A stretch of 35,624 bases of DNA, from contig JABEVB010000118.1 of NCBI GenBank assembly GCA_013044165.1, positions 1-35,624 on the forward strand. The letters are read 5' to 3'. This DNA is from Phycisphaerales bacterium (GTDB lineage: Bacteria; Planctomycetota; Phycisphaerae; WQYP01). Positions 11,575 to 31,156 of the stretch are shown here, piece after piece (positions within the stretch are counted from its first letter, which is position 1; each line of letters starts with the position of its first letter). The translations under genes were made by a program, and so were the position numbers. The notes under the pieces are model-generated. The model did not search any database. It was not told the origin of the DNA and saw only the letters and a program-made list of their open reading frames with translations.

Positions 11575-13200
11575 TTATGGTAAGCGGTCGCGATGGGCTT
11601 TGTTGATATTGCTGCCGGAGGGTCGCGTTGTGGATTGCCTGAAATGCCCCATGCGACGGTGGCCTCCCCTGGCGGATAAAAAATCGGTACTCACCAAAGC
11701 AAACAGCAGGATCATGGCTGCGGCGGCGGCACAGAGCAAGGTGGTGGTGCGTTTGAGAGTGCGGCCTCGCCCGTCGGCGTGTACGGGCGCATGCACCAGA
11801 CAAAATGCTTCAGTATGAATTTGCGTTGGGCGTATGCCAGCCGCGAGAAGACCGTTTACCATGGCCTGCGTAAATGGACCTGGGCCACAAATCCAAAATG
11901 ACGGGTTGCCACGCGCAAAATCGCAATGCCGACGGATGGTAGCGATGTCAATATGGCCTCGCTCGCCGTTCCAGGCGGCATCAGCTTTACTTAACACATG
12001 CACCACGCGAATGGCACCCGCAGATGATTGCTCAATTTGCGTTAGCTCATCACGGAAGACGATGTCATCCTGTGTGCGATTGCCATAAATAAGCAGTGCC
12101 GAGGCATCTCCGGGGCCGTCGGCCATGTATCGCAACATGCTGCGAAAAGGCGTGATGCCGATGCCTGCGGCAATAAACACCCTTTGTTCGCGGCCGTTGG
12201 TGGCATGCAGCGCGTGGCTGAAGCGGCCAAAAGGGCCGTGTACCAGCACGCGCCCGCCGGGCCGTAACCGGCCAACGGTCGCGGTAAAGTCGCCGAGTTC
12301 CTTTATAGCAAGGGTTAGACCGCCAGCCTCCGTTGGACTCGATGCAATTGTCCAAGCGTGCTCCTCTGAAACTTTTTCCGCACCTGCATGCGGCAGCGAG
12401 AAAAAGGCAAACTGTCCGGGCAAGTAACGCAGTTGCTGGTCGGGATGCAGGGCCTTGAGTTGCAATTGCCAGACTGCCTTGCCCAGCGACCGCACTTCGG
12501 CAAGTTCGTAGACGAGGCGCTGTGGCAGGGCCGGTCGCACGGCGCGCGTCCAAAAAAGCGATATCAGCGCCGCTGCGACGACGGTAAGCACCAGAATTCG
12601 CAGTGGCAACGGAGCAAAAGCCTCGCTGGAGTAAAGTCCATGCGCGAAGGCACTAACAAGTACAATTAAAGCCACCAGCCGATGACTGAAGCGCCACCGC
12701 TCAAACTCAACGTGCAGGCGCATGCGGTAAAGACTTGCCCCCACCTGAGTGACAACTGCCAGTAGCGCGATGCGGCCCAACTGCAGATGCCACGGTATCC
12801 ACAATTTGGTGATCAGTTGGCTTTGGCGCGTGGCCATGAGTGCAACATGTAGAAGGATCGCGAATAGCCCGGCTACGGCCATTCGCCTATGAAAGAGCAA
12901 TACGGCATCGAGGCCAAAAGGGCGGCTGATCCATTGATAGCGTGCAGCGAGAATAAAACTCGTCGCAAAAATCATAAGGCCGAAGAGGCCCAGCCCCAGC
13001 GCAATCTGGCGAGTAAACCGGCCTGCTGGCACTGTGGGATTGAGCATGGCCAGCGCTAAGGGCCCGATGAGAGCCACCGCATACAATCCCAGGATGAGCG
13101 ATCCGGGAAGGTACCGCAAGGGGGCCGTGGTTTGCAAGCCCGGTACACCTAGTGTGGCATTGGCGGCTGTAGGTAGCGGGTTCTTGCGCATATCAGTCAT
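11575..13200 (-). CDS. Ferric-reductase-like transmembrane protein with FAD/NAD(P)-binding oxidoreductase domain
   Basis: N-terminal multi-TM region, then LPGQFAFFSL, HAWTIASSP, FIAAGIGITPFRSML, FWICGPGPFTQAMVNGL (FNR family signatures). Confidence 0.85.
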   Translation of the reverse strand: MTDMRKNPLPTAANATLGVPGLQTTAPLRYLPGSLILGLYAVALIGPLALAMLNPTVPAGRFTRQIALGLGLFGLMIFATSFILAARYQWISRPFGLDAVLLFHRRMAVAGLFAILLHVALMATRQSQLITKLWIPWHLQLGRIALLAVVTQVGASLYRMRLHVEFERWRFSHRLVALIVLVSAFAHGLYSSEAFAPLPLRILVLTVVAAALISLFWTRAVRPALPQRLVYELAEVRSLGKAVWQLQLKALHPDQQLRYLPGQFAFFSLPHAGAEKVSEEHAWTIASSPTEAGGLTLAIKELGDFTATVGRLRPGGRVLVHGPFGRFSHALHATNGREQRVFIAAGIGITPFRSMLRYMADGPGDASALLIYGNRTQDDIVFRDELTQIEQSSAGAIRVVHVLSKADAAWNGERGHIDIATIRRHCDFARGNPSFWICGPGPFTQAMVNGLLAAGIRPTQIHTEAFCLVHAPVHADGRGRTLKRTTTLLCAAAAAMILLFALVSTDFLSARGGHRRMGHFRQSTTRPSGSNINKAHRDRLP

Positions 13201-13364: not shown

Positions 13365-13394
13365 TTGACCCCGGCGATAGCTTATGAGTATACT
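13365..13394 (+). promoter_or_regulatory. Candidate sigma70-type promoter upstream of nuoA
   Basis: TTGACC (13365-13370) - 18 bp - TATACT (13389-13394). Confidence 0.55.
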
Positions 13395-13403
13395 ACGAAA
13401 AGT

Positions 13404-13425
13404 GATTGTGAATTGTGTCACAATC
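13404..13425. promoter_or_regulatory. CRP/FNR-superfamily-type operator (perfect palindrome)
   Basis: GATTGTGA-ATTGTG-TCACAATC: 8-bp arms, 6-bp spacer, matching TGTGA-N6-TCACA; overlaps/abuts the predicted transcription start. Confidence 0.55.
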
Positions 13426-13460
13426 CGACCGAGGTATGTTTGCGGCAAGGATTGTTCATT

Positions 13461-13883
13461 ATGATGTTTGCCATTCCCCCGGCTCTCGCCCAAGGTTCGA
13501 CCTATGCGATGCAGTGGGGGCTGATTCTAATACTATTTCTTATCGCGCTGGGCTTTGCGATTGGCAATGTTGTTGTATCGCAACTACTGGGGCCTTCGCG
13601 TAAGGGCCGCACTAAAGATACCTCGTATGAGTCAGGTGTAGAGCCGCTCGGCAGCACGCGTGACCGCTTTAACGTGCGTTTTTATCTGGTGGCCATGATC
13701 TTTTTGGTGTTCGACGTCGAAGTACTGTTTCTGCTGCCTTGGATAACCATTTTTAACAAAAGTAAGAACGCCGCGCTGCACCTGACGCATAGCCCGCTGT
13801 TTGGAAGCGTGCTCCTCTTTTCAGCAATATTGCTGATTGCCTATGTGTATGCATGGGGCAAGGGTGTCTTTAAGTGGGATTGA
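13461..13883 (+). CDS. nuoA: NADH-quinone oxidoreductase subunit A
   Basis: YESGVEPLGSTRDRFNVRFYLVAMIFLVFDVEVLFLLPW is the NuoA signature; start at ATG 13461 because the longer ORF (13257) would be translated through the promoter/operator region. Confidence 0.92.
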   Translation: MMFAIPPALAQGSTYAMQWGLILILFLIALGFAIGNVVVSQLLGPSRKGRTKDTSYESGVEPLGSTRDRFNVRFYLVAMIFLVFDVEVLFLLPWITIFNKSKNAALHLTHSPLFGSVLLFSAILLIAYVYAWGKGVFKWD

Positions 13884-13960: not shown

Positions 13961-14539
13961 ATGGCGATGGAACCTACAGCACTACCTGATAATGTATTAA
14001 CGCTAAATTTAAAAAAGGCCGTCAACTGGTGTCGGCGATCGAGCGTTTGGCCGTTGCCGTTTGCAACGGCATGTTGTGGCATTGAGCTGATGGCCACCGC
14101 GAGCAGCCGCTACGACCTTGCCCGCTTTGGCGCAGAGGTCATGCGATTTTCTCCGCGCCAGGCGGACCTGCTGATTGTTGCCGGTCGCATCGGTATTAAG
14201 ATGGTGCCGGTATTGCATCGCATATACATGCAGATGGCCGAGCCAAAATGGGTTATCAGCATGGGAGCTTGTGCGTCAACCGGCGGAGTTTTTGACAATT
14301 ACGCCACCGTGCAGGGAATTGATCAATTTATGCCGGTGGACGTATACGTGCCCGGCTGCCCGCCGCGGCCCGAAACGCTGATGGAGGGCATTATGACCAT
14401 TCAACGTATCATTGACGAATATGGCTTGCCGCCGGCCAAGCGGCACCCGCTCAAACTCTCGGTGCAACCAACCTTTAAACCATCGCCGCAGCCTCAGGTA
14501 GTGTTAGGACCGACGCTGGCGGCCGCAGTCGGCCAATAG
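13961..14539 (+). CDS. nuoB: NADH-quinone oxidoreductase subunit B
   Basis: [60 protein letters not shown]: NuoB with all four N2 cluster cysteines; GGAG SD. Confidence 0.96.
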
Positions 14540-27300: not shown

Positions 27301-27339
27301 AATGTTTGGGTGGTTTGGCGTGTTAGCTTAAGGAATTTG

Positions 27340-29157
27340 ATGCGGCGGCGCGAGTTCTGTAAGATTCTGGCCAAGGCCGCAACAGCGGCGGTAACAGCAA
27401 CGACAATTAAGTCTGAGGCTGCGCAAGCGGCCAATGCGTTCGGCTTCATAGCCTCCGGCTTCAACAAACCGGATGAAAGCTATGCTGACTTCTGCGGTAT
27501 CCCCGAATTTAACCGCGTTTTTTACGCGGTTAAAGGTAACGACATCGTTGCTGAAAAGCTCAATGAGCACACGTGGCGTCCAACTGGTTGGGGCCGCCCG
27601 CCTCTGCTACCGGTACCGGGCGGATCAAGGGATGGCGTTCCTAACAATAGCCCCATTCCAAACCTGTATGGTAAAGGTCCTTACAAGCCAACGTATGACT
27701 CCCTTTTACAGTATGAATGTCCAGAATGGTACCGTGACGCAAAATTCGGCATCTGGAACCACTGGAGTCCACAGTGCGTACCCGAGGATGGAGACTGGTA
27801 CGCCCGCAACATGTACACACAACATTCCGCTCAGTACAACTTTCAGTGCAAGCATTATGGGCATCCTTGCAAATTTGGGTACAAGGACCTGTGTGCTCAA
27901 TGGACGCTGCTGAACTGGCAGCCAGAAGAACTTATGGACCTGTATGTCGCGGCTGGTGCCAAGTTATTCCTTGCGCTGGCAAACCACCACGACGGGTTTG
28001 ACACCTGGCATTCGAGACATCACGAGTGGAATGCATTCAACATAGGGCCACGTCGTGACGTTATTGGCGAGTGGGCCAAGGCAGCGCGAGCTCGCAGCCT
28101 GCCTTTTGGTGTTACCGTCCATCAAGGTCGCAATTGGTGGTGGTTCCAAACCGCGCACGGCTCGGATAAAACGGGACTACTTGCCGGGATACCCTATGAC
28201 GGCCACCTTACCAAGGCGGATGGCAGAGGTACCTGGTGGGACGGCTACGATCCGCAGCAGCTCTACGGAGCCAAGCATCCACACAATGCGCTTCCTGATT
28301 TCAGCTACGTCAAGAATTTCTATGATCGCACTCGCGATTTGATAGATCAACACAATCCGGAACTGCTGTATTTCGACAATGCCTTACTTCCACTGGGGTG
28401 GGCAGGCATGAACTTAGGCGCCTACTTTTATAACAACAGTCTGAAAGCCAATGGTGGAACAATGCGGGGTGTCATCACCACTGGCAATGTGCCAAGCCAT
28501 CTGCGAAAAGCCTTTGTTTATGATATTGAATCCGGCGTTACTGATCGCATATTGCGTCACCCATGGCAGTCGGAAACCTGCATTGGCGACTGGCATTATC
28601 AGCGAGCCCTCTACAACCACCCTGGCGAGTATGGAGCCTATCGCCATCCGCAGGACATCATTCGCTGGATGATTGATGTGGTAAGCAAAAACGGCACGTT
28701 TATTCTGGACATTCCAGGCAAGCCTGATGGCACCATTGACAGCAAAGAAAAGGCTGTGCTGAAGCAGCTGGCCATGTGGTTCGCAATTAACGGTGAAGCC
28801 ATCTATGCAACCCGACCTTGGAAGGTATTTGGCGAGGGGCATCTGAAGATCATCAAAGGGCGTGACAACGGCTACGAAAACATAAAACAGTACGACGCCC
28901 ATGATATTCGCTTCACCCGCAACAAGGCTGGCACTGTGGTGTACGCGATTTTTCTGGGCTGGCATCCAAAGGAGTTTGTCGTTGAGTCCTTTGGTCTTGT
29001 AGCCGATACCAAACCAGGCAAAGTTCTTTCGGTGGAACTGCTCGGAAGCCAGGAAAGGCTCTCTTGGCGGCAGACGGCTCAGTCGCTGGCCATTGCCACG
29101 CCCAAACATAAGCCGGGCGAGTACGCGTTTGCGTTTAAAGTCAGTTTCGCATCATGA
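27340..29157 (+). CDS. Alpha-L-fucosidase-like GH29 protein, Tat-type leader
   Basis: RRREFCKILAKAATAAVTA leader; YRDAKFGIWNHWSPQCV, NHHDGFDTWHSRHHEWNA, LLYFDNALLPLGWAGMN; AAGGA SD before ATG 27340. Confidence 0.88.
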   Translation: MRRREFCKILAKAATAAVTATTIKSEAAQAANAFGFIASGFNKPDESYADFCGIPEFNRVFYAVKGNDIVAEKLNEHTWRPTGWGRPPLLPVPGGSRDGVPNNSPIPNLYGKGPYKPTYDSLLQYECPEWYRDAKFGIWNHWSPQCVPEDGDWYARNMYTQHSAQYNFQCKHYGHPCKFGYKDLCAQWTLLNWQPEELMDLYVAAGAKLFLALANHHDGFDTWHSRHHEWNAFNIGPRRDVIGEWAKAARARSLPFGVTVHQGRNWWWFQTAHGSDKTGLLAGIPYDGHLTKADGRGTWWDGYDPQQLYGAKHPHNALPDFSYVKNFYDRTRDLIDQHNPELLYFDNALLPLGWAGMNLGAYFYNNSLKANGGTMRGVITTGNVPSHLRKAFVYDIESGVTDRILRHPWQSETCIGDWHYQRALYNHPGEYGAYRHPQDIIRWMIDVVSKNGTFILDIPGKPDGTIDSKEKAVLKQLAMWFAINGEAIYATRPWKVFGEGHLKIIKGRDNGYENIKQYDAHDIRFTRNKAGTVVYAIFLGWHPKEFVVESFGLVADTKPGKVLSVELLGSQERLSWRQTAQSLAIATPKHKPGEYAFAFKVSFAS

Positions 29158-29308: not shown

Positions 29309-31156
29309 ATGCGAAGACGTGAATTCTGCAAACTTCTGGCTGGGGCTGCGACAGCGGCAGTAACCGCAACGACAACTAAAGCGGATAAGACGCTGTTGGC
29401 CACCGGGACCAGCACAATTGCATCAGGCTATAACCAGCCTGATGGTACCTATGCGGATTTTTGTGCCATTCCCGAGTTGCAGCGGAAGTATTATGCAATC
29501 AAGGATAACTCGATCGTCGCGGAAAAATTGGATGAAATGACTTGGCATCCCGCTGACTGGCGAAACCCGATCACGCCGGCTGTTCCCGTTCGCGGCGGCG
29601 CGTGGAATGATGTGCCCATGATTGGTCCGTTAAAAGGGCTTCATGGTGAAGGTCCTTATAAGCCAAGCTATACATCCATGCTGCAGTACGACTGTCCCGA
29701 ATGGTACCGTGATGCCAAGTTCGGCATCTGGAATCATTGGAGTCCATCGTGTGTGGCGGAGGATGGCGACTGGTATGCGCGTCAGATGTATATACAAGGA
29801 CGGCCGGAGTACAATTACCAGTGCAAACATTTCGGGCATCCATCCAAATTTGGTTTTAAAGACCTTTGCGCCCAGTGGACGCTCTTGAATTGGCAGCCGG
29901 AAGAACTCATGAACTTGTATGTAAAGGCTGGTGCCAAAATTTTCATGATACTGGCCAATTTTCATGACGGCTTTGACACTTGGAACTCGCGGCATCACCA
30001 ATGGAACGCACAGCGAGTAGGCCCGCATCGGGATGTTATTGGCACTTGGGCCAAAGTTGCGCGAGCACATGGCCTGCGAGTGGGGGTGAGCGTGCATCAG
30101 GCTCGCAATTGGTGGTGGTATCAGGTGTCACATGGCGCGGATGCGACCGGTCCACTTGCCGGCGTTCCCTATGATGCCTGTTTGACCAAAGAAGATGGAA
30201 AAAACACCTGGTGGGAAGGTCTCGACCCACAGCAGCTTTACGGGCCAAAACACCCTTTCAATGCGCTCCCTGACTTCACCTTCAGTAAGAACTTTTACGA
30301 TCGCACCCGCGACCTTATAGATCAACACGATCCGGACATTTTGTATTTTGATAACGACATGCTACCGCTTGGCTGGGCCGGCATGAACATCGGGGCGTAC
30401 TTTTACAATCGCAACTTGAAAGTTCGCGGCCAAATGGAGGCTGTCATCAATGTCAAATACGTCCCATTTGACCTTACCAAAGCGGTGGTTGCCGATTTAG
30501 AGCGGGGCGTCACAGACAGCATTATGCAATATCCGTGGCAGTCGGAGACCTGCATTGGTCAGTGGCACTACCAACGCGCTCTTTACAATCATCCCGGTAA
30601 ATATGGCGGATATCTAAAGCCGCGGCAAATCATTCACTGGATGATTGATGCCGTAAGTAAGAATGGAACGTTTATTCTTAATATTCCCGGCAGGCCTGAC
30701 GGTACGATTGACAGCAAAGAGAAGCTGATTCTGCACGAACTCGCCGATTGGTTTGCCATCAACGGACAGGCCATATATGCAACCCGGCCATGGAAGGTCT
30801 TTGGCGAGGGCATGTTGCAGACGGCAGCCGACACATCCAATAACCCGCATGGCACCACTGGCGCGTACAACGGCTACAAGTCAACAAAAAATCTCGGCCC
30901 AGGCACCATCCGGTTTACACGCAACAAGACCGGTACGGTTGTCTATGCGATTTGTTTGGGCTGGCAGGATAAGGATTTTATTATTCGCTCGTTAGGCTTG
31001 GCAGCCGACACAAAACCGGGCAAAGTTTTGGCTGTTGAGTTGCTGGGCTGCCAAGAGAAGCTTTCATGGAAGCAAACGCCGCAGTCGCTGACCATCGCAG
31101 CCCCCAAACATAAACCGGGTGAATATGCGTTCGCTTTCAAAGTAAGCTTTGCATGA
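29309..31156 (+). CDS. Alpha-L-fucosidase-like GH29 protein (tandem paralogue), Tat-type leader
   Basis: MRRREFCKLLAGAATAAVTATT; YRDAKFGIWNHWSPSCVAEDGDWYARQMY, NFHDGFDTWNSRHHQWNA, ILYFDNDMLPLGWAGMN; GGAG SD. Confidence 0.9.
   Translation: MRRREFCKLLAGAATAAVTATTTKADKTLLATGTSTIASGYNQPDGTYADFCAIPELQRKYYAIKDNSIVAEKLDEMTWHPADWRNPITPAVPVRGGAWNDVPMIGPLKGLHGEGPYKPSYTSMLQYDCPEWYRDAKFGIWNHWSPSCVAEDGDWYARQMYIQGRPEYNYQCKHFGHPSKFGFKDLCAQWTLLNWQPEELMNLYVKAGAKIFMILANFHDGFDTWNSRHHQWNAQRVGPHRDVIGTWAKVARAHGLRVGVSVHQARNWWWYQVSHGADATGPLAGVPYDACLTKEDGKNTWWEGLDPQQLYGPKHPFNALPDFTFSKNFYDRTRDLIDQHDPDILYFDNDMLPLGWAGMNIGAYFYNRNLKVRGQMEAVINVKYVPFDLTKAVVADLERGVTDSIMQYPWQSETCIGQWHYQRALYNHPGKYGGYLKPRQIIHWMIDAVSKNGTFILNIPGRPDGTIDSKEKLILHELADWFAINGQAIYATRPWKVFGEGMLQTAADTSNNPHGTTGAYNGYKSTKNLGPGTIRFTRNKTGTVVYAICLGWQDKDFIIRSLGLAADTKPGKVLAVELLGCQEKLSWKQTPQSLTIAAPKHKPGEYAFAFKVSFA

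Follow-up and report, generated by a model that had tools for sequence, protein, structure and literature searches.

Organization of the nuoA upstream region

The window, that is, the whole stretch of 35,624 nucleotides analysed here, comes from a Phycisphaerae-type planctomycete MAG (3.58 Mb in 255 contigs, ~90% complete; denoted G000), and the nearest named relatives of its NuoB protein are found in MAGs of Planctomycetota/Phycisphaerales. Two complex I subunits are encoded on the forward strand, NuoA (13461-13883, with the ATG at 13461; 140 aa; PF00507, 109 bits) and NuoB (13961-14539; 192 aa; PF01058, 101.5 bits), the latter by the last nuo gene of the unit. The genes downstream of nuoB are unrelated, in this case coding for a family 3 glycosidase, and a nuoAB bicistron followed by non-nuo genes is also present in the three relatives inspected. 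Further along the window, two tandem paralogues (27310-29157 and 29309-31156; 615 aa each) with similar N-termini resemble glycoside hydrolases.

Upstream of nuoA, a -35 hexamer TTGACC (13365-13370) and a -10 hexamer TATACT (13389-13394), both on the forward strand, are separated by an 18-nt spacer. The TTGAC at this place is kept in most relatives, where the -10 hexamer is TATAAT or TATGAT. A perfect 8-6-8 dyad, GATTGTGAATTGTGTCACAATC (13404-13425, no strand assigned), lies 9 nt downstream of this promoter and 35 nt upstream of nuoA; if transcription starts about 7 nt past the -10 hexamer, as we infer, the dyad would span approximately +4 to +25. It was named in the initial annotation, and on re-reading of the sequence the dyad, its coordinates and TTGACC-N18-TATACT were all found as described there. 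Within the dyad, a predicted Rex operator (ROP), TTGTGAATTGTGTCACAA (13406-13423, no strand assigned), has one mismatch to TTGTGAA-N4-TTCACAA.

On the minus strand, divergent from nuoA, is a gene for a ferric reductase-like flavoprotein (11575-13200). The intergenic region is common to the two genes, so that Rex could also affect the flavoprotein gene.

The extended motif is rare and conserved

A perfect 8-6-8 dyad alone is not rare: the window contains two, against ~0.56 expected. The sequence TTGTGA-N6-TCACAA occurs once in the window versus 0.0016 expected, and the genome-wide scan for this pattern proposed in the initial annotation yielded four matches in the 3.58 Mb genome versus 0.16 expected from composition, with none for the reversed-pattern control. 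When up to two mismatches were allowed, the genome count (70) barely exceeded that of the control (57), and the signal is thus limited to near-exact sites. Summed over 28 genomes of the family, TTGTGAA-N4-TTCACAA with at most one mismatch gave 94 sites, compared to 4 for the reversed control.

The operator is located 5' of nuoA in 16 of the 20 nuoA-bearing genomes of the GTDB family. In the relatives, it mostly lies 10-11 nt past a -10 box of the form TAT(A/G)(A/C)T, itself downstream of TTGAC; the promoter at nuoA is less clear in G004. Among six genus representatives, the first 16 operator bases are 98% majority-conserved versus 46-47% for the flanks, and no other part of the upstream region is as well conserved as the operator. 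The operator reads TTGTGAATTGTTTCAC in most relatives and TTGTGAATTGTGTCACAA in the genus of the window (G000 and G001), and mismatches to TTGTGAA-N4-TTCACAA number one in the window and one or two in the 15 relatives with a site at nuoA. The conserved unit is TTGTGA(A/G)TTGTTTCAC; relatives do not preserve the GA/TC at the outer ends of the 8-bp arms. A recognisable site at nuoA is absent from the other four nuoA-bearing genomes of the family (G007, G008, G009 and G010); Rex was detected in the first three of these. Beyond the family, a 120-genome sample of the class gave no instance of the promoter-plus-operator arrangement, the scan having used a strict pattern that missed even the site in the window because the -10 hexamer there is TATACT. 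A chance palindrome is ruled out by the conservation and the genome counts.

Rex is encoded in nearly all genomes with the operator

The consensus of Streptomyces Rex is TTGTGAA-N4-TTCACAA (PMC5355995), and an identical generalised Rex consensus, cited from Ravcheev 2012, is given in PMC5317091. The G000 genome encodes a full-length Rex (contig C246), in which PF06971 (60.9 bits) and PF02629 are combined in one protein consisting of a winged-helix N-terminal domain and a Rossmann NAD(H) domain. This protein scores 273 bits against the NCBIfam Rex model (cut-off 126) and matches the Thermus Rex structures with a phmmer value of 1e-46. Among the 16 genomes that carry the operator at nuoA, 14 yielded a Rex, and the remaining two are 53% and 79% complete.

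In the alignment with Thermotoga maritima Rex, seven of the 12 DNA contacts are kept in the G000 protein (R12, S33, Q46, R48, G58, G61 and Y64), and the others are changed (E34R, K43T, K49R, S52A and R60P). Positions 34, 52 and 60 are reported to be variable within the family, and Thermus Rex likewise has T at position 43. Residue K49, in T. maritima numbering, contacts a base. The recognition helix (L007:1003-1662, minus strand; L130) reads QVRRDL in the genus of the window (g1), which corresponds to K49R; the other inspected Rex proteins have QVRKDL or QIRKDL. This genus, the only one with K49R, also has an inner operator base at nuoA changed from T to G, off consensus, whereas its other operators retain the usual inner bases. 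We do not claim co-evolution of K49R and the inner base, since this is a single event in one lineage and the other operators are unchanged.

Alternative readings of the dyad

The initial annotation attributed nuoA to control by a regulator of the CRP/FNR family that binds TGTGA-N6-TCACA. The half-sites do fit TGTGA/TCACA, but this string is also contained in the Rex consensus, and A predominates at position 7 of the half-sites (30 of 36), as in Rex sites, which argues for Rex over CRP/FNR. With respect to the regulator itself, the genome encodes one CRP-like protein of 242 aa (L005) that combines a cNMP-binding and a Crp HTH domain, but it scores far below the NCBIfam cut-offs (62 of 266 for CRP, 65 of 245 for NtcA and 55 of 228 for Fnr). 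According to our alignment, its recognition helix, TTLYTASRLL, carries Leu and Tyr in place of Arg180 and Glu181, which are base contacts in CRP (PMC12531629); two of the three CRP residues that contact bases are thus replaced. The second cNMP-binding protein of this genome is a Pycsar TIR effector that is encoded beside its cyclase and is no regulator. Furthermore, no PF00027 protein occurs in eight of the genomes that carry the operator at nuoA (G001, G002, G003, G006, G017, G018, G020 and G024); Rex is encoded by all eight, of which six have a completeness of at least 91%. Given these eight genomes without a cNMP-binding domain and the base-contact changes in L005, control by CRP/FNR is very unlikely, and the attribution gives way to Rex, whose consensus the extended motif follows and which is encoded in nearly every site-bearing genome.

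As an observation in its own right, the Pycsar pair (L006:1303-2979, on contig C202 of G000) is an anti-phage system, with the cNMP-binding TIR effector (PycTIR) followed by the PycC-type cyclase.

We consider it highly improbable that a different, unrecognised repressor uses the motif in these planctomycetes: the K49R substitution and the altered inner base in the genus of the window leave some room for such a protein, but Rex is encoded in nearly all site-bearing genomes, and both the consensus and the functions of the targets suit Rex. An RNA hairpin acting as a terminator or attenuator is effectively ruled out, because, although the dyad looks terminator-like on the minus strand in a consensus scan (8 pairs, loop of 6), one such site is at chance level for the region (mean 1.2), the relatives keep TTGTGAATTGTTTCAC and not the complete stem, with outer pairs lost without compensation, and the operator sequence recurs before unlinked genes.

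Predicted Rex regulon

Beyond nuoAB, predicted Rex sites of G000, exact or with one mismatch, precede nuoD of nuoDEFG, the other complex I operon found (C31:9281); actA of the alternative complex III operon (C186:1090); an operon coding for a cytochrome c, a porin-like protein and a cytochrome c (C154:30285); and a porin-like gene (C132:9870). The designations 'ActA' and 'porin' reflect sequence character, and neither Pfam nor NCBIfam gave a match for the porin. With at most one mismatch allowed, 12 of the 19 nuoD-bearing genomes retain the nuoD site; at actA, with up to three mismatches, the figure is 22 of 25 genomes. Porin homologues adjoin sites at nine other loci. The predicted targets are NADH-consuming or respiratory genes (nuoAB, nuoDEFG, actAB and cytochrome c). 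Because nuoDEFG, the alternative complex III, the cytochrome c operon and the porin gene share the operator, a joint adjustment of electron transport genes is probable.

Other sites have less obvious targets. An exact palindromic site, TTGTGAAATTGATCACAA (G000:C49:15471-15488; L002), has no clear respiratory target, and its neighbour genes gave no matches beside the sites of relatives. For the one-mismatch sites on C38 and C87, no respiratory target is apparent in the flanking sequence read, and these matches may have arisen by chance. None of the exact or one-mismatch sites of the genome lies at the rex locus, and hence we make no claim of Rex autoregulation.

Four genomes of genus g5 (G005, G014, G019 and G022) lack nuoA and have only distant nuoD paralogues; they retain Rex and the actA site. 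By gene content, this genus appears to have lost complex I.

In the operon on C154 (L106:2819-5202), genes for the cytochrome c, the porin-like protein and a small haem protein follow the Rex-type site as one apparent operon. These proteins may form a module that transfers electrons across the outer membrane.

A model of NADH-responsive control

Motif, conserved position, rex gene and shared target set, all read directly from the genomes, indicate that the dyad very probably serves as the operator through which Rex, a repressor that senses NADH/NAD+, acts at the start site of a two-gene nuoAB operon. Binding by the G000 Rex itself would follow a known precedent, in which Rex binds DNA at a low NADH/NAD+ ratio and is released by NADH (PMC5355995). 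At low NADH, a Rex dimer, either apo or NAD+-bound, would occupy the nuoAB operator and block initiation or clearance of transcription, for which a position at approximately +4 to +25 is suited. Upon a rise in NADH, NADH-bound Rex would leave the operator and nuoAB would be made, so that high NADH would result in more complex I, the oxidiser of NADH. The earlier view that a protein bound at the start site would more plausibly repress than activate is supported, the operator being real, conserved and predicted to cover the start site. With a Rex site at nuoAB, this uncultured planctomycete, like some other bacteria, thus seems to match its respiratory chain to the NADH level.

A broader proposal, which we put forward tentatively and rate at somewhat below even chances, is that Rex is a family-wide master switch of the electron transport chain, including the separate complex I operons, the alternative complex III, the cytochrome c operon and an outer-membrane-type porin, and that in the genus of the window, K49R in Rex and the inner T to G change of the nuoA operator occurred together.

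The reassignment replaces a wrong regulator with a testable one and provides an uncultured family with a predicted NADH-responsive respiratory regulon. It also illustrates that TGTGA-N6-TCACA alone cannot separate Rex from CRP, whereas the inner AA/TT and the regulators encoded by relatives can.

Comparison with known systems

A literature search of incomplete coverage returned no Rex regulon in Planctomycetota and no report clearly dealing with Rex control of alternative complex III. What is new is the lineage, the position of the operator, a complex I whose genes are split, each of two units having an operator, and the connection with alternative complex III. Rex control of complex I is already known in Streptomyces: Rex of S. 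avermitilis binds and represses the nuoA1-N1 promoter, as demonstrated by EMSA, footprinting, ChIP and a rex mutant (PMC5355995). The regulator family, the consensus and the target complex are the same here. The two systems differ in the place of the operator: that of S. avermitilis (TTGTGACCTGCTTCACAT; PMC5355995) is flanked by the -35 and -10 regions, and the one here is located just past the -10. They also differ in the operon, which is nuoA-N in S. avermitilis and here comprises nuoAB only, with a separate nuoDEFG that has its own operator. In Shewanella oneidensis, CRP, likewise a TGTGA-type factor, is reported to act on NADH dehydrogenase genes (PMC12210985). Unlike in that system, no canonical CRP was found here, and both the motif extension and the co-occurrence fit Rex.
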